This document shows, piece after piece, positions 42,953-49,627 of a DNA stretch of 64,000 nucleotides (its first letter is position 1; the number at the start of each line of letters is the position of its first letter). Made by a program: the position numbers and the translations under genes. The stretch covers positions 327,981-391,980 of the forward strand of contig JAHBVB010000002.1 of the NCBI GenBank assembly GCA_019637805.1, given 5' to 3'. This stretch comes from Anaerolineales bacterium. GTDB taxonomy: Bacteria; Chloroflexota; Anaerolineae; Anaerolineales; UBA11579. Under the pieces are notes generated by a model that was given only the letters and a program-made list of their open reading frames with translations, was not told the origin of the DNA and ran no database searches.

Positions 42953-43028
<76 letters not shown>

Positions 43029-43151: not shown

Positions 43152-43168
43152 TGCTGGTCTGACCAGCA
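43152..43168. promoter_or_regulatory. FadR/GntR-type operator before the E1-like gene
   Basis: TGCTGGTCTGACCAGCA is a perfect palindrome (8-bp arms, one central base) that contains TGGTNNNACCA, the core bound by FadR-subfamily GntR proteins. It lies 28 nt before a gene that itself encodes a GntR-type DNA-binding domain. Confidence 0.75.
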
Positions 43169-43196: not shown

Positions 43197-44828
43197 ATGA
43201 GCAACGCTATCCCCAGAAGCAGCATCCCAGAGCTGGTGGCCGGCAAACTGGCCGCCGCACTGCTGGAAAAAGACTACCTGCCGGGCGCCTACCTGCCGCC
43301 GGAGCGTGACCTGATCAAGGACCTCGGCGTCAGCCGCTCCTCGCTGCGCGAGGGACTGCAGATCCTGGCTGAGGCCGAGCTGATCGAAGCGCACCAGGGG
43401 GTTGGCTGGCTGGTGGCCGCCTTATCGGCGCAGCAGGCGGCCAAAGCCCGCAAGCTGGCCGCCCGCCTGGCGCCACCTGCTGCGGACAAGCCGGCACGGC
43501 GCAAACCGGCCGCGCCGGCTGCCGGGCCACAGCGCCTGCCCGTGGCCAAAGAGAAGCCGCTGCACATCCCCAACCTCAAGAAAGACCGTCTGGGCACTTT
43601 CGACTTCATCTCCTGGTGGGAACGCGACAAAGTGCGCGACGCCAAGGTTATGGTGGTGGGGGCGGGCGCTTTGGGCAACGAGGTCATCAAGAACCTCACG
43701 CTGATGGGCATTGGCCACATCTACGTGGTCGATTTTGACAATGTCGAACTGGCCAACCTCAGCCGCTCGATCCTCTTTCGTGAGAAGGACTCCGGGCGGG
43801 AAAAAGCTCAGTTGGCCGCCGCCCGCGCCAAAGAGATCAACCCCGACGTAAAAGTGCAATACCTGCACGGCGATATCACGCATGACATTGGTTTGGGCGT
43901 CTTCCGCCGTATGGACGTCATCATCGGCTGCCTGGACAACCGTGAGGCGCGCCTGGCGGTCAACCGCTTTGCCTATTGGATGAACAAACCGTGGGTGGAT
44001 GGCGCCATCCAGGAACTGCTCGGATTGGTGCGCGTGTTCGTCCCCGGCGACGGCGCCTGCTTCGAATGCACCCTCACCGAGCAGGCCCGCCGCGACCTGG
44101 CCCTGCGTTACTCCTGCCCGCTGCTGGCCCGCCAGAACATCTTGCTGGGCAAAGTGCCCACCACGCCCACCATCGCTTCCATTATCGGCGCCATGCAGTC
44201 GCAGGAGGCGCTCAAGCTGATCCACAGCATGCCGGTGGAGCCGGGCAAGGTCACGCACTTCAACGGCTACACCAATCACATGCACACCACGGCCTACCTG
44301 GCCGAGGAGGACTGCGAGAGCCATTGGATCTACGGTGAGATCACCGAGACACCGTTGCGCGCCGAGAGCACCACCCTGGGCGAGATGCTGGATGTCGTTT
44401 TCGCTGATCTGGGCGAGGACGCTGTGCTGGAGTTGGATGAGGAGCTGGTGCTCTCGCTGAATTGCATGGCTTGCAACACTTCTGAACGAGTGCTCAAGCC
44501 CATGTCCGACGTGTCCTTTGAGGCTGGGCATTGCCCCACCTGTGGCGAGATGCGTGAGGTCAACATGACCCACACTATCCGCGGCGACGAAGATTTCCTT
44601 GACCGCAGCCTGGCCAGTGTGGGCGTGCCACCGCTGCATGTGCTGCGCGCCACCAACGGCCGTGATTTTCGCTTCTACGAACTCAGCGGCGACTTGCATA
44701 AAGCGCTGCACTTCAACGATTTTGCCGAGGCGGTACCGACACCCTCGCCAGAAGCGCGTGTGCGCCTGGGTGAACCGGTCAGCGAATCTGGGGACACGGC
44801 CGCGGCGCGCATCCATCTGATGGATTGA
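43197..44828 (+). CDS. GntR-E1 fusion: ubiquitin-activating-like enzyme with DNA-binding domain
   Basis: A 543-residue protein with three parts. Residues 8-75 form a GntR winged helix of FadR type (PPERDLIKDLGVSRSSLREGLQIL). A basic Ala/Pro linker follows (76-120). From about 130 comes a ThiF/E1 adenylation domain: GAGALG (155-160), Asp 179/181, Arg 190, Lys 203 and CLDN (245-248). CFEC (288-291) and a later pair (CMAC 423-426 or CPTC 446-449) could hold zinc. Cys 307 is the likely thioester Cys, spaced from CFEC as in MoeB. ATG 43197 follows GGAG. It is first in the ubiquitin-like operon. Confidence 0.9.
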   Translation: MSNAIPRSSIPELVAGKLAAALLEKDYLPGAYLPPERDLIKDLGVSRSSLREGLQILAEAELIEAHQGVGWLVAALSAQQAAKARKLAARLAPPAADKPARRKPAAPAAGPQRLPVAKEKPLHIPNLKKDRLGTFDFISWWERDKVRDAKVMVVGAGALGNEVIKNLTLMGIGHIYVVDFDNVELANLSRSILFREKDSGREKAQLAAARAKEINPDVKVQYLHGDITHDIGLGVFRRMDVIIGCLDNREARLAVNRFAYWMNKPWVDGAIQELLGLVRVFVPGDGACFECTLTEQARRDLALRYSCPLLARQNILLGKVPTTPTIASIIGAMQSQEALKLIHSMPVEPGKVTHFNGYTNHMHTTAYLAEEDCESHWIYGEITETPLRAESTTLGEMLDVVFADLGEDAVLELDEELVLSLNCMACNTSERVLKPMSDVSFEAGHCPTCGEMREVNMTHTIRGDEDFLDRSLASVGVPPLHVLRATNGRDFRFYELSGDLHKALHFNDFAEAVPTPSPEARVRLGEPVSESGDTAAARIHLMD

Positions 44829-44829
44829 T

Positions 44830-45714
44830 ATGGCCACGAATGTCATTCAAATGCCGCGCATGAATTCTTCCCCCAGCACCTTCGGTCACCTGCTGGAACA
44901 GGTCGTCCTGGTAACGCTCATCACGGCCGTCACCGCCCTGGCTTTGCTGCTGCTCTTTTCGTTGGAGTTGCAGGTTTCCCTGACAGCCATGAAATATGCC
45001 GCGCTGGGCTTGGTGGGCTTGGTGGCGGGCTTCAGCGCGCGGCGTCTGCTAGCGGGGCGTAGCTATGCCCTGCGCCTGTCCACCGCTGGGCTGGCCATCT
45101 GCCTGGGGCTGGGCTTGATGAATGAGGCCAGCCGCGGCTTTATTGGCATTGACCCCTTGCACCAATTCGCCCACATCACCTTCGAGCAGAACGGGCTGGC
45201 TCTGCTCACCAGCAGCCTGGCGGCCTGGCTGGCGCTGAGCGCCTTTGCCCGGCCGCGCACTGAGATCCTGGTGGAGCCGCGCCCGGCCGCTTCGCTGGAA
45301 GTGGCGGCGCCTGTACCTCCCATCAGCGTCTCGCCTGCGCCGCGGCCGCGTGTGCGCGCCGCGCGCCCAGCTCGCCGACCCACCATCCGCACCTCGATCG
45401 CCAATTGGAGCGGGCGCGTCAAAACCAGTTTGGTCAGCCTGTGGCCGGGCCGCCGCGTGCGCCGCGGCCCCAGCCTGCGCCAGCCCCGCCAGCGCATCGC
45501 CGCTCCGGCGGCGCCTAAGCGCACCCGGCGGGGCCGCCGGACAGCTGTGCATTTTTCCAGTGCGGAGACCCATGTCTGCCCGTACTGCCTGGAAGAAGTC
45601 ACCAAGAAAGACCCGCGCGGCGTGCAGATTTGCAAAGTGTGCAAAACCTGGCACCACCGCGATTGCTGGGAGATCACTGGCGTTTGCCAGGTGCCGCATC
45701 AATACGCAGAGTAA
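44830..45714 (+). CDS. Membrane-anchored RING-like protein, predicted E3
   Basis: A 294-residue protein that starts 1 nt after the E1 stop. The N-terminal 140 residues hold three to four membrane helices (about 23-45, 52-72, 83-100 and 121-140). A basic Pro/Arg/Ala-rich linker spans 141-240. The C-terminus is a binuclear treble-clef finger: C250-x2-C253, C268-x2-C271, H275/H276, C279, C286 and H290, in the RING order. Its place between E1 and E2 genes argues for a ubiquitin-ligase role at the membrane. No biochemical proof can be drawn from sequence. Confidence 0.82.
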   Translation: MATNVIQMPRMNSSPSTFGHLLEQVVLVTLITAVTALALLLLFSLELQVSLTAMKYAALGLVGLVAGFSARRLLAGRSYALRLSTAGLAICLGLGLMNEASRGFIGIDPLHQFAHITFEQNGLALLTSSLAAWLALSAFARPRTEILVEPRPAASLEVAAPVPPISVSPAPRPRVRAARPARRPTIRTSIANWSGRVKTSLVSLWPGRRVRRGPSLRQPRQRIAAPAAPKRTRRGRRTAVHFSSAETHVCPYCLEEVTKKDPRGVQICKVCKTWHHRDCWEITGVCQVPHQYAE

Positions 45715-45727
45715 ACGAGGAGATCCT

Positions 45728-46567
45728 ATGGCTGAAACCGAAATCACGATCATCATGCCCAGCGGTGGGGCGCGCAAGGCCGAAATGCCGGACGACATCC
45801 CCATCCGCGACCTGGTCACCGAGCTGGCTTCGCTGCTGGAGCTGCCCACTGTAGGGCCAGACGGCCGCCCGATGGGCTACCGCCTGGACAGCAAGGCCCT
45901 GGGCCGTGAACTGAAGGAGGACGAGACCCTGGCTACTGCCGGCGTGCCTGCCGACGACCGCCTGATCCTGACCGCCGACATCACCGCCGGCGCCGTCGGC
46001 ACGGAAAGCCCGCGTCTGCGCCGCCTGAAAGCCGACCACACCCGCATGCAGGAGCTGGCGGCTCAGAGCGACTTTATCGACTTCAAGGCGCTTTCCGAGC
46101 GGCCAGGCCTGCCGCCGGAAAAATACATCGTGACCTACACCTGCAAAGGCATCGTGGGCGTTGACCGTTCCGGCACGCCCAAGTTTGGCGAACGCCACCA
46201 GGTGGAGATCTATCTGCACAACCAATACCCGCAGCGTTGGCCGGGGATGAAGTGGCTGACCCCGGTCTGGCATCCCAACATCAACCACCTCAACGGCACA
46301 GTCTGTGTGGACGCTGCCTGGTGGACGGCCAGCCGCTCGCTGGACCGCCTGGTGTTGATGATCGGCGAGATGGTGCAGTACAAGAACTTCCACGACGATC
46401 CCACCAAACCGCCATTCCCCTGGGATCCGGAGGCCGCCCGCTGGAGCCGGGAATACCGGCGCCGCAACCCACGCGCCTTCCCGGTGGATGCGCGCGAGTT
46501 GCTGCGCCCAGAGCGGGTCCGCATCAAGGACAAGCCCAAAACCAAGCCGCGCATTCGCCTCAAATAG
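45728..46567 (+). CDS. Ubiquitin-like domain fused to E2 conjugating enzyme (UBC fold)
   Basis: A 279-residue fusion. Residues 1-88 are a YukD-type beta-grasp domain about 69 percent identical (61 of 88 by eye) to the free protein encoded next. Residues about 95-235 are an E2 fold with Pro-rich YPQRWPGMKW, the HPN motif (182-184) and the active-site Cys 193 in NGTVCVD, followed by Trp 198/199; this is the order of eukaryotic E2s. The chain ends in a basic tail TKPRIRLK. ATG 45728 with GAGGAG upstream is chosen. Confidence 0.9.
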   Translation: MAETEITIIMPSGGARKAEMPDDIPIRDLVTELASLLELPTVGPDGRPMGYRLDSKALGRELKEDETLATAGVPADDRLILTADITAGAVGTESPRLRRLKADHTRMQELAAQSDFIDFKALSERPGLPPEKYIVTYTCKGIVGVDRSGTPKFGERHQVEIYLHNQYPQRWPGMKWLTPVWHPNINHLNGTVCVDAAWWTASRSLDRLVLMIGEMVQYKNFHDDPTKPPFPWDPEAARWSREYRRRNPRAFPVDARELLRPERVRIKDKPKTKPRIRLK

Positions 46568-46574
46568 TGGTTCC

Positions 46575-46590
46575 CGGCAGCATGCTGCCG
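46575..46590 (+). other. Palindromic hairpin before the free Ubl gene
   Basis: CGGCAGCATGCTGCCG is a perfect palindrome between the E2 stop and the Ubl RBS. With the hairpin at 46901-46932 it brackets the Ubl cistron. Confidence 0.5.
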
Positions 46591-46624
46591 TTGATTGCCA
46601 AGAAGAACTTGAAAGGAGTTAGAC

Positions 46625-46891
46625 ATGGCAGAGATCCCTGTAACCGTAGTATTGCCCTCGGGGGGCAGCCGTTCCGCCGATGTGCCCGATGACGTGGAGG
46701 TCAAGGACCTCATCCCGGAATTGGCCACTTCACTGGAACTGCCCACCACCGGCCCGGACGGCCGCCCGATGGGCTACCGCTTGGACAGCAAGGCCCTGGG
46801 CCGCGAGTTGAAGGACCAGGAAACCCTGTCTGGCGCCGGCATCCCCGCCGAAGACCGGCTGATCATGACCGCCGACGTCACCGCCGGGTAA
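46625..46891 (+). CDS. Free ubiquitin-like protein (YukD/EsaB-type beta-grasp)
   Basis: An 88-residue beta-grasp protein. It begins EIPVTVVLPSGG, has a central helix (VKDLIPELATSLEL) and ends DRLIMTADVTAG, so the chain terminates in Ala-Gly with no extra residues to trim. A bare C-terminal Gly is what an E1 can adenylate. It is nearly a copy of the N-terminal domain of the E2 fusion. AAAGGAG precedes the ATG by 7 nt, the strongest RBS of the operon, which suits a modifier needed in excess. A role as the conjugated modifier is inferred. Confidence 0.88.
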   Translation: MAEIPVTVVLPSGGSRSADVPDDVEVKDLIPELATSLELPTTGPDGRPMGYRLDSKALGRELKDQETLSGAGIPAEDRLIMTADVTAG

Positions 46892-46900
46892 TGACTTGGC

Positions 46901-46932
46901 CTGGGCAGGGCTGGCAAAACAGCCCTGCCCAG
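46901..46932 (+). other. Strong hairpin between Ubl and isopeptidase genes
   Basis: CTGGGCAGGGCTG pairs perfectly with CAGCCCTGCCCAG (loop GCAAAA). A TTTTT run comes only at 46941. It may stabilise the Ubl mRNA or act as a partial terminator. Confidence 0.65.
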
Positions 46933-46949
46933 ACGCCTGCTTTTTGCTT

Positions 46950-47618
46950 ATGACCCACACCAACATCTCCCCACTGGTAGCGGCTCAGGCGCCCCGCCCG
47001 GCGCGTCTGCCGCTGGAGCGCGCCCAGCGCTGGCTGGCCGAGGGTGAGCCGGATGCTGCGCCGCACACTCAGGTCTTCATGACCCAAACTGCCTTCCAGG
47101 CCATCCACCGTCACGCCAACACCGACTTGGATAACGAAGTAGGCGGCTGGTTGGCGGGGCGGCACTGTCAGGATCCGGACACGGGTCAGCCTTACCTGGT
47201 GGTGGAGGCGCTCCTGCCCGCCCAGCAGGTGCGCTCGGGCAGCACCTTCCTCACTTTCACACACGACAGCCAGGTGGCCATGCTGGCCGCCCTGGAGGAG
47301 CGCTACGCCAACAAGCACATTGTGGGCTGGTACCACACCCATCCGCGCATGAGCGTTTTTCTCTCCGGTTACGACCTTTGGCTGCATCGGCACTTTTTCC
47401 CGCATCGCTGGCAGGTAGCGCTGGTGGTGGAACCGCACAGCCACACCGCGGGCTTCTTTATTCGAGACAAAGAGGGCAACTTGAACGCCCAGCAAGGCTA
47501 CGGTTTTTACGAGCTCTTTAACCGCAAATCCCACCCGGTGGTGGACTGGAAGAATTTACACCAGCCACCGGCTTCAGACAAAGGCCAAGCCAAGGCCGCT
47601 CAGGAGGCAGAAGAATGA
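46950..47618 (+). CDS. JAMM/JAB metallo-isopeptidase (deubiquitinase-like)
   Basis: A 222-residue MPN+ protein. The complete JAMM zinc motif is present: Glu 63 (DNEVGG), His 129 and His 131 (WYHTHP), Ser 139 and Asp 142. Eukaryotic relatives such as Rpn11 remove ubiquitin from targets. It follows the Ubl gene and would reverse its conjugation. The N-terminal 40 residues and the Gln/Ala/Glu-rich tail are extra. I start at ATG 46950; a longer frame to 46896 would read through the hairpin. No clear RBS is seen. The stop overlaps the next ATG by 4 nt. Confidence 0.92.
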   Translation: MTHTNISPLVAAQAPRPARLPLERAQRWLAEGEPDAAPHTQVFMTQTAFQAIHRHANTDLDNEVGGWLAGRHCQDPDTGQPYLVVEALLPAQQVRSGSTFLTFTHDSQVAMLAALEERYANKHIVGWYHTHPRMSVFLSGYDLWLHRHFFPHRWQVALVVEPHSHTAGFFIRDKEGNLNAQQGYGFYELFNRKSHPVVDWKNLHQPPASDKGQAKAAQEAEE

Positions 47619-48472
47619 ACCGCTACACCCGTCTGTATTACTACAGCCTATTGGGCGCCATTGGCGGCCTGATCGGCTGGCAGGCCAGCAATCTGCTCGG
47701 CCTTTCGTTCGTGCAGAATCTTTATCTCAGCGAAGTCGTCGTTGGGGCGCTGATCGGCCTGTGCATCGGCGCCCTGATCGGCCTTAGTGAGGGCCTGGCC
47801 GCCCGCAGCCCGCTCTACGGCCTGCGGGCCGGGCTGATCAGCGGGCTGCTCGGCGCCCTGGGCGGCGCGGCCGGGCTGCCGCTGGCCGAATATGCCTTCC
47901 AAAGCCTGGGCGGCGAAGCCTGGACGCGTGCGCTGGGTTGGGCCATCTTCGGCGCCTTTATCGGCGCCGGCTTGGGTTTCAGCAGCGGGTCCCAGCTGTG
48001 GAAGCCGATCCTGGGCGGCCTGCTGGGTGGCGCGGTCGGCGGCTTTTTGCTGGAGTTCGCCCGCCAGCGCTTTGCCGACCCATTGATGGGCAAGGCGGCC
48101 GGCCTGGGCCTGCTCGGCGCGGCGGTGGGCGCTTTCATTGCCCTCATTGTGCTGCTGCTCTCCAAAGCCTGGCTGGAAGTGGTTACGGGCAAGATGAAGG
48201 GCACGGAATTCGTGCTGGACAAGTTCATTCACGCCAATGGGCCTTCGGCCTATATCGGCTCAGATGCGCTCAAGGCAGACATCGTCCTGCCTGATCCGGA
48301 TATTGCCCCACAACATGCCCTGCTCAAAGGCGCAGACACGCACATGACGCTCAAGGATATGAGCAGTCAGGGCACTTTTATCAACAACCGCCGGATCGAA
48401 GTCGCCAATCTAAAAGACGAACAGGCCATTCGGATCGGCAATACCCAAATGGTCTATCACGAAAAGAGGTAA
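47615..48472 (+). CDS. Polytopic membrane protein with C-terminal FHA-like domain
   Basis: A 285-residue protein. Residues 8-185 hold about six Gly/Ala-rich membrane helices. Residues 200-285 form an FHA-like sandwich (AYIGSDALKADIVLPDPDIAPQHALL, then GTFINNRRI). The usual phospho-Thr Arg after the Gly is Ser here, and the Ser of SxxH is Ala, so phosphopeptide binding is doubtful. It is coupled to the isopeptidase gene by ATGA, so it belongs to the operon. It may place the pathway at the membrane. Confidence 0.8.
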   Translation: MNRYTRLYYYSLLGAIGGLIGWQASNLLGLSFVQNLYLSEVVVGALIGLCIGALIGLSEGLAARSPLYGLRAGLISGLLGALGGAAGLPLAEYAFQSLGGEAWTRALGWAIFGAFIGAGLGFSSGSQLWKPILGGLLGGAVGGFLLEFARQRFADPLMGKAAGLGLLGAAVGAFIALIVLLLSKAWLEVVTGKMKGTEFVLDKFIHANGPSAYIGSDALKADIVLPDPDIAPQHALLKGADTHMTLKDMSSQGTFINNRRIEVANLKDEQAIRIGNTQMVYHEKR

Positions 48473-48475
48473 CCC

Positions 48476-49597
48476 ATGAAGACACTTCGCCTCTCCATCA
48501 CGCTTTTGGCTGTCTTGGCCCTTTTGGGGACTGCGGCCTTCGCACCCCTGGCCCAGGCCGAGGAGAACATCCGCGTCACCCAGGTGGATACCAGCCAATT
48601 CCCGCGTGTCACTGTCTACGTCTCCGCCACGGACGCGGCCGGCAATCCGTTGCCGGTGGACCCCAACCGCATTCAGCTGGCCGAGAATGGCCAGCCCATC
48701 CCGCTGGACCGCATTGAAGGCATTGGCGATGTGGGGGCACTGACCACCATGCTGGTCATGGATGTCTCCGGCAGCATGGACACGGCTGGCAAGCTGGATG
48801 CAGCCAAAGCGGCCGCACACCAGTTCATTGACCGTATGCGCCCCGGCGACCAGGTGGGCCTAATCGCTTTCAACACGCAGATCGAAACCGTGCAGCCCAT
48901 CACCAGCGACCAGGAAGCCCTGCGCGCCGCGGTGGACAGCCTGACTGCCGGCGATGACACCGCCATGTATGACGCGCTCATGGCAGCCGTGGAGCAGTTG
49001 GAGGCCGAGAGCGGCCGCAAAGCGATCATTGTGCTGACCGATGGCATGGACAATTCCAGTTCCGCCAATACCGACACGGTCGTCAATCGCATCGGCCCCA
49101 TGGGGCTCTCCATCTCGGCGGTGGGCCTTGGTTTGCCGGGGCAGGGCGGCGCCATGGCGGGTATTAATCAGCCGCGCTTGCAGGACCTGGCCGATAGGGC
49201 TGGCGGCCTGTATGGCTACGCTGAAGACGAGGACAGCCTGACCACCCTATACAGCAGCTACGCCACCGCGCTGCAGAGCGAGTACGCCATCACCTACACC
49301 TCGCCGGCCACCCTGCGTGATGGGGTCAACCGCGCCCTCAGCGTTTCGCTGGCTTCGTCGACGGGTGCCTCAGGCAGTGACACGGCCGCCCAGTACAACC
49401 CCGGTGGCCTGGTGCCAGAGGTGGCCCAGCCCGCCTCTTGGACGCTGTTTGCTGCCGTCATCCTGATCCTGGTTGCGCTGGTGGCTGTGCCCATGCTGTG
49501 GGGCAGCCTGCGGAGCAATCTTGCCCCCGCCTCTGGTGGAAGCGGTGGCAAAGTCCGCTTGAAAAAGCCGGCCAATGTGCGCATCAAGCTCAAATAA
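48476..49597 (+). CDS. Membrane von Willebrand factor A (vWA) protein
   Basis: A 373-residue exported protein with signal peptide (1-28), a vWA domain (about 75-270) with an intact metal site (DVSGSMD, the Thr in DDTAMYDAL, and LTDGMDN), a C-terminal membrane helix (about 321-343) and a short basic cytosolic tail ending NVRIKLK. The tail end resembles that of the E2 fusion (PRIRLK). It starts 3 nt after the FHA-like gene, ends the operon, and would carry its binding domain outside the cell. Its target is unknown. Confidence 0.85.
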   Translation: MKTLRLSITLLAVLALLGTAAFAPLAQAEENIRVTQVDTSQFPRVTVYVSATDAAGNPLPVDPNRIQLAENGQPIPLDRIEGIGDVGALTTMLVMDVSGSMDTAGKLDAAKAAAHQFIDRMRPGDQVGLIAFNTQIETVQPITSDQEALRAAVDSLTAGDDTAMYDALMAAVEQLEAESGRKAIIVLTDGMDNSSSANTDTVVNRIGPMGLSISAVGLGLPGQGGAMAGINQPRLQDLADRAGGLYGYAEDEDSLTTLYSSYATALQSEYAITYTSPATLRDGVNRALSVSLASSTGASGSDTAAQYNPGGLVPEVAQPASWTLFAAVILILVALVAVPMLWGSLRSNLAPASGGSGGKVRLKKPANVRIKLK

Positions 49598-49627
49598 AGA
49601 AAAGCCCCGTCAGGGGCTTTTCTTTTT
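49596..49627. terminator. Terminator of the ubiquitin-like operon
   Basis: AAAGAAAAGCCCC, loop GTCA and complement, ending in TCTTTTT. It overlaps the 3' coding end of the convergent gene and may serve both directions. Confidence 0.9.

Follow-up and report, generated by a model that had tools for sequence, protein, structure and literature searches.

Ubiquitin-style protein tagging has long been regarded as a eukaryotic pathway. A seven-gene operon in a 64,000-nt stretch of DNA from an Anaerolineales bacterium (assembly GCA_019637805.1, contig JAHBVB010000002.1, positions 327,981 to 391,980; hereafter, the window) was found to encode an activating enzyme (E1) fused to a GntR domain, a membrane RING-type protein, a conjugating enzyme (E2) fused to a ubiquitin-like protein (Ubl), a free Ubl, a JAMM isopeptidase, and two membrane proteins with FHA and vWA domains; Table 1. 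The operon is likely to be a self-contained, reversible, membrane-anchored ubiquitin-type conjugation system, with a self-regulating E1 and shared docking tails. An earlier note on this DNA had proposed the seven genes at 43197-49597 and had listed their active residues. Pfam profiles matched all seven proteins (the RING-type protein near the cut-off), two structure models agreed with the assignments, and every listed residue of E1, E2, RING, JAMM, and the Ubl end was located where it had been placed.

When 84,980 species genomes were scanned, 80 related loci emerged, nearly all of them from metagenome-assembled genomes of Chloroflexota/Anaerolineae, together with Pelolinea submarina, Leptolinea tardivitalis, and Leptolinea sp. 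HRD-7. The gene order E1, RING, E2, Ubl, JAMM, FHA, vWA on one strand was kept in all loci uncut by contig ends, except L156 (Candidatus Magnetocorallium), a rearranged locus in which RING and JAMM genes are each present twice and the E1 has no GntR; it is also the only one of the 80 named for a non-Chloroflexota organism. With its genes, their order, and the catalytic residues all repeated at about 80 loci, the operon is not a chance assembly. The view of the earlier note that the genes form a single unit was upheld by this conserved order, and the neighbourhood survey it had called for returned the same set, mostly from Anaerolineae. Identity between the window and its orthologues ranges from ~45 to 90% for the enzymes, and falls to ~30% for the membrane RING-type protein, which evolves fast. 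Within the genus, searches with E2 and RING detected the operon in all eight genomes with a completeness of 90% or more, although its distribution across the class is patchy, with 29 good genomes out of 210 (the distant f10 type included). No eighth member recurs across the set among the flanking genes of the loci; at 18 of the loci, a ribosomal protein cluster (nusG, rplK, rplA, rplJ) precedes the operon.

The E1 matched the ThiF (3.8e-55) and GntR (3.9e-14) profiles of Pfam. It consists of a winged helix (residues 14-73), which profile comparison identified as a helix-turn-helix of the PdhR/FadR type, a ThiF-type adenylation domain (140-373), and a C-terminal domain (~380-505) that resembles a ubiquitin-fold domain (UFD) with a zinc ribbon, followed by a loose tail, RVRL...RIHL. 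The GAGALG motif and Cys307 are invariant in 49 aligned sequences. Two zinc sites were predicted, one of which (C288, C291, C373, H376) is like the usual site, and the other formed by C423, C426, C446, and C449. Being invariant and outside both sites, Cys307 is the best candidate for the catalytic cysteine. With an adenylation domain that corresponds to a single ThiF-type unit, the E1 probably works as a homodimer. In a PDB profile search, UBA7 and UBA1 scored 131 and 113 bits, compared with 92 and 85 bits for ThiF/MoeB. The E1 model (predicted local distance difference test score, pLDDT, 80) contains the winged helix, the adenylation domain, and the C-terminal domain, and its residues 130-498 superpose on UBA3, SAE2, UBA7, and UBA1 over ~290-309 residues, versus ~225 for ThiF/MoeB. 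The superpositions on the eukaryotic E1s span 60-80 residues beyond ThiF, with a large root-mean-square deviation (rmsd) for the long superpositions, and this supports, but does not prove, an assignment of the extra part to the UFD region.

The Ubl-E2 fusion matched UQ_con (6e-11) and YukD (1.5e-9), and the free Ubl matched YukD (5e-10). The E2 contains HPN at residues 182-184 and Cys193, both of which are present in 80 of 81 loci, and ends in RIRLK. Its model (pLDDT 81.9) comprises a ubiquitin fold and a ubiquitin-conjugating (UBC) fold; UBC structures were matched with Z of ~11 over 130-140 residues (rmsd 3.0-4.2), the matches of the model include Caldiarchaeum ubiquitin and a bacterial Ubl, and the closest entry in the PDB profile search was UBE2K. 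Structure prediction, as suggested in the earlier note, agreed with the assignment of both enzymes, with eukaryotic E1 folds matched by the E1 model and a UBC fold recovered by superposition of the E2 model. A conserved acidic xELDxEL in the C-terminal domain of E1 and a conserved basic RxRRL at helix A of E2 resemble the acidic/basic pair described for eukaryotic E1-E2 docking (PMC12355090). The free Ubl is 88 residues long and ends in TAG in 74 of 77 homologues, and would therefore need no trimming; the isoelectric point (pI) of the window copy is 4.2. In the fused Ubl, TAG at residues 86-88 is kept in 75/75 copies, and the residues that follow vary. Fused and free Ubls form two separate clades, with 4 exceptions among 152. 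The E2 of the deeper relatives L064, L065, and L066 has no fused Ubl, which suggests that the fusion is derived.

The RING-type protein matched Prok-RING_1 with 5.5e-6 and 26.7 bits as a protein (cut-off 29.1), and with 30.9 bits, above the cut-off, in a genome scan. Its ligands, C250, C253, C268, C271, H275/H276, C279, and C286, form a pattern found in 78 of 81 homologues. The JAMM enzyme matched Prok-JAB (2e-11) and contains Glu63, His129, His131, Ser139, and Asp142; the strict pattern is present in 77 of 82 homologues, most of the others being divergent or truncated. The FHA protein matched YscD-like/FHA profiles (5.6e-13 and 4.7e-12), and the vWA protein matched VWA (6e-21), with DVSGSM at position 96 as its metal ion-dependent adhesion site (MIDAS). 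The membrane placement of the RING-type, FHA, and vWA proteins, also proposed earlier, agreed with a transmembrane (TM) scan, which predicted about four TM segments in the RING-type protein and about five in the FHA protein, with Prok-RING_1 and the FHA domain at the C-termini, and a signal peptide, one C-terminal TM segment, and a short basic tail ending in RIKLK in the vWA protein.

The core of a palindromic operator, TGGTCTGACCA, lies 42 nt upstream of the E1 start and has a single match in the window. This form of the core is present in 48 of 67 orthologous upstream regions, and in none of the shuffles. When close variants were allowed, 57 sites were found in 1.27 Mb of loci, 54 of which are located at most 60 nt upstream of E1 (81 loci). 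The sites of Escherichia coli FadR have a similar core (PMC4259882). Within the genus, the site upstream of E1 is kept across the good genomes and one further locus is common to three of them (G005, G008, and G011); the remaining operator-like sites in the organism's own genome have no similarity to that locus. A FadR-type GntR domain, together with a matching palindrome clustered just upstream of E1, indicates that the E1 is very probably a regulator, either repressor or activator, of its own operon.

In the loose tails of four of the proteins, a hydrophobic-basic-hydrophobic motif, searched for with the pattern [IV][RKH][LIMF], was roughly ten times as frequent as in shuffles: E1 (160 observed, 19 expected), E2 (164 and 15), vWA (99 and 10), and the N-termini of JAMM (52 and 4). 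The RING linker showed a weak excess and the FHA protein none. Among the 58 loci in which all four tails are readable, 36 have the motif in all four and 21 in three. The motif is the protein end of E2 in 76 of 81 loci and of vWA in 56 of 66. When the whole genome was searched for further proteins with the exact motif at their end, the only hits were the E2 and the vWA protein of the operon, which pointed to no additional partner; the count equals that of a reversed-pattern control, and the location alone is informative. These findings suggest that the motif is a common docking handle, for which one common partner would be the simplest reading and the acidic Ubl the most likely partner. Four loci (L134, L138, L143, and L147) have one JAMM gene more in the operon; in several of them, the vWA tail runs past the motif and ends in a sequence such as PWDE..KH.

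In the proposed mechanism, the free, already glycine-ended Ubl would be adenylated by the E1 and then held on Cys307, and the C-terminal domain of the E1 would transfer it to the E2, at Cys193. The RING-type membrane protein would steer the Ubl to lysines of membrane or membrane-proximal targets, and the JAMM enzyme would take it off again. By binding the operator, probably as a homodimer, the E1 would make tagging capacity follow its own busyness or abundance. The tails of E1, E2, JAMM, and vWA would dock, most likely by offering a basic strand to the acidic Ubl. The vWA protein, with its vWA domain outside and its tail inside, is the leading candidate for a receptor or substrate, and the FHA protein probably couples the system to phospho-threonine signalling. 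A ligation and removal cycle at the membrane had been suggested in the earlier note; for each of its five core activities, the prediction comes from profile matches together with conserved active residues, and its membrane parts are in place, whereas the activity itself is something we infer. Neither the organism's own genome, at 95% completeness, nor any of three genomes of Pelolinea/Leptolinea yielded a 20S proteasome. All four genomes carry the operon, and with no proteasome found in them, tagging probably leads to signalling or turnover at the membrane, and not to proteasomal degradation. A more specific and tentative proposal, to which we give somewhat less than an even chance, is that the E1 serves as the transcription factor of its own pathway, its free or Ubl-charged state setting expression, and that the tails gather E1, E2, JAMM, and a vWA surface receptor on the acidic Ubl in a proteasome-independent, receptor-linked ubiquitin signalling circuit.

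Several points weigh against the proposed system. Tagged proteins could be degraded by another protease. The role of Cys307 follows from its invariance and its exclusion from the predicted zinc sites, and the RING profile match is marginal, the RING assignment being a sequence-based one. A pattern scan for a sigma-70 consensus promoter found none. The tail pattern was chosen after the tails had been viewed, and the counts are descriptive; the loci are related, so that shuffles overstate their independence. The JAMM enzyme of the window itself lacks the motif. In the models, the E1 tail, the E2 tail, and the linker are disordered and no docking partner is seen; the E2 tail is not placed on the fused Ubl.

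If correct, binding of the E1 to its own operator would be an unexpected link between conjugation and gene control, and docking tails of a common type would lead directly to partners and substrates. A full predicted E1-E2-RING-JAMM cycle in many Anaerolineae, including cultured strains, opens the how and why of ubiquitin-type signalling outside eukaryotes to testing without interference from a proteasome. What the analysis adds to the earlier note is the pairing of the E1 with an operator, the motif common to the tails, the failure to detect a proteasome, and the depth of conservation.

Other functions of the operon were considered. The Ubl on the E2 might be a precursor, from which the JAMM enzyme would free a second Ubl by cutting behind TAG, in the way that CsRpn11 acts on Caldiarchaeum pro-ubiquitin (PMC5654768). 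The invariant TAG and the variable residues behind it would suit such cleavage; however, the free Ubl requires no processing, the separate clades indicate that the two Ubls are not interchangeable, and the deeper relatives have an E2 without any fused Ubl, which makes a precursor unlikely. A cascade that tags phage or immune proteins in anti-phage defence, like the cyclic-oligonucleotide-based anti-phage signalling system (CBASS) or Bil, would accord with the weak matches of E1 and JAMM to the E1-E2 and JAB models of PADLOC, and with the defence roles of known bacterial ubiquitin-like systems (PMC10097602). It is nevertheless rather improbable, because no model fits a whole defence set, and because 18 loci adjoin the ribosomal protein cluster and no defence gene occurs among the recurrent flanking clusters. 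The operon is also kept in every good genome of the genus, unlike typical patchy defence genes, though its patchiness across the class blunts this argument.

A role as an accessory of a type VII secretion system (T7SS), in which the YukD-like Ubls and the FHA/YscD-like parts would form an export machine and the enzymes would be secondary, appears very unlikely. YukD is a recognised partner of the T7SS and, according to a report on Bacillus, is not conjugated there (PMC1779556), and ESX-5 entries (7b9f/7b9s) are also among the structures on which the fused Ubl can be superposed, but neither an FtsK-like ATPase nor WXG100 was seen in the operon or the recurrent flanking clusters, a separate YukD locus exists elsewhere in the organism's own genome, and the conserved TAG end, together with intact E1, E2, and JAMM sites, argues for conjugation. 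The E1 could, by its single adenylation domain and by the ThiF/MoeB folds that score best by Z, be a sulfur-transfer activator of the ThiF/MoeB kind with the Ubl as sulfur carrier. This is extremely unlikely given the co-conservation of E2, the RING-type protein, and JAMM with the E1, the UFD-like domain of the E1 and the higher scores of eukaryotic E1s, and the lack of thiamine or molybdenum genes in the operon.

Burroughs, Iyer and Aravind reportedly predicted, in 2011, prokaryotic E1/E2/RING/JAB sets with YukD-like Ubls. The five core components of the conjugation system described here, including the C-terminal glycine of the Ubl, the Prok-RING_1 and Prok-JAB families, and the YukD-like Ubl, are the same. 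As far as those sets are generally known, the differences lie in the GntR-E1 with its own operator, the E2 fused to a Ubl, the tail motif common to several proteins, and the membrane partners with FHA and vWA domains, and the operon is a variant of those sets, marked by the regulator-E1, operator, tail motif, and fixed FHA/vWA genes. No description of the Anaerolineae seven-gene operon was found in the literature searched, which is weak evidence, as the Burroughs 2009/2011 papers and a 2012 review were outside the search. The operon of Caldiarchaeum subterraneum also encodes ubiquitin, E1, E2, a small RING protein, and Rpn11/JAMM, and works in vitro (PMC5654768, PMC6043591); it is archaeal, however, makes a ubiquitin precursor, and as described has no GntR, FHA, or vWA. 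BilABCD likewise combines a bacterial Ubl, E1, E2, and JAMM, but its E1 has an extra inactive adenylation domain, its E2 a CEHH motif, and BilA two Ubl domains, with no RING listed (PMC11354881), whereas the present operon has a single adenylation domain behind a GntR winged helix, an HPN E2, and a RING-type gene. CBASS Cap2/Cap3 shares E1/E2 chemistry undone by a JAMM enzyme, but Cap2 is an E2-E1 fusion that conjugates a cGAS/DncV-like nucleotidyltransferase (CD-NTase) instead of a Ubl (PMC10097602); here, E1 and E2 are separate genes, and the operon has no CD-NTase. The distinction from CBASS and Bil drawn in the earlier note is therefore retained. With no 20S proteasome found in the four genomes, the operon also differs from Pup/ubiquitin proteasome targeting.

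Sister operons of the f10 type (L065 and L066) have E1, Ubl, E2, and JAMM genes that are homologous at 34-56% identity, and RING genes in L066, but no GntR on the E1 and no Ubl on the E2; tblastn found no FHA or vWA homologues at either locus. The f10 operon (L066 7345-13777, and L065) includes a CAP-domain gene, E1, free Ubl, E2, two JAMM, and two Prok-RING_1 genes, both pairs occurring in L066. One JAMM gene is followed by a TM segment, and the E2 ends in IKFG or IKIG, an ending that recalls the tail motif.

Table 1. Features of the conjugation operon and its borders (window positions)
Feature	Position	Strand	Basis or remark
tRNA-Arg (TCT)	42953-43028	-	directly upstream of the operon, opposite strand
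Palindromic FadR-type operator (predicted), TGCTGGTCTGACCAGCA	43152..43168		core TGGTCTGACCA at 43155-43165
GntR-E1 gene	43197..44828	+	Pfam, PDB profile, model, superpositions, alignment
Membrane RING-type gene	44830..45714	+	Pfam, genome scan, ligand pattern, TM scan
Ubl-E2 fusion gene	45728..46567	+	YukD-like Ubl part 45728-45991, then UBC; Pfam, model, PDB profile
Free YukD-like Ubl gene	46625..46891	+	Pfam, homologue lengths and ends, pI
JAMM isopeptidase gene	46950..47618	+	Pfam, residue positions, conserved motif
Multi-TM protein gene, C-terminal FHA domain	47615..48472	+	Pfam, TM scan
vWA protein gene	48476..49597	+	Pfam, TM scan, MIDAS, tail motif
Intrinsic terminator (likely), AAAAGCCCC-GTCA-GGGGCTTTT, then T run	49600..49627		read directly off the sequence

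The gaps between the genes, in order, are 1, 13, 57, 58, -4 (ATGA), and 3 nt. The ATGA overlap (JAMM/FHA) and the longer gaps around the Ubl gene described earlier were reproduced, and the gap before the E2 gene, previously given as 14 nt, is corrected to 13 nt. The E1 start at 43197 is most likely preferable to a longer frame from 43146, because the operator core falls between the two. The terminator, which the pattern scanner did not list, is common to the operon and a convergent gene ending at 49610. YukD-like domains were also observed in other settings. A further YukD gene (L073 1402-1737; C2:460154-460348 of the organism's own genome) shares its region with a short WXG100-like open reading frame, possibly representing a type VII-like secretion locus. 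In family f29 (L068 8688-8948 and L069 8719-8970), YukD-like domains head proteins with a TM segment and WD40-like repeats.

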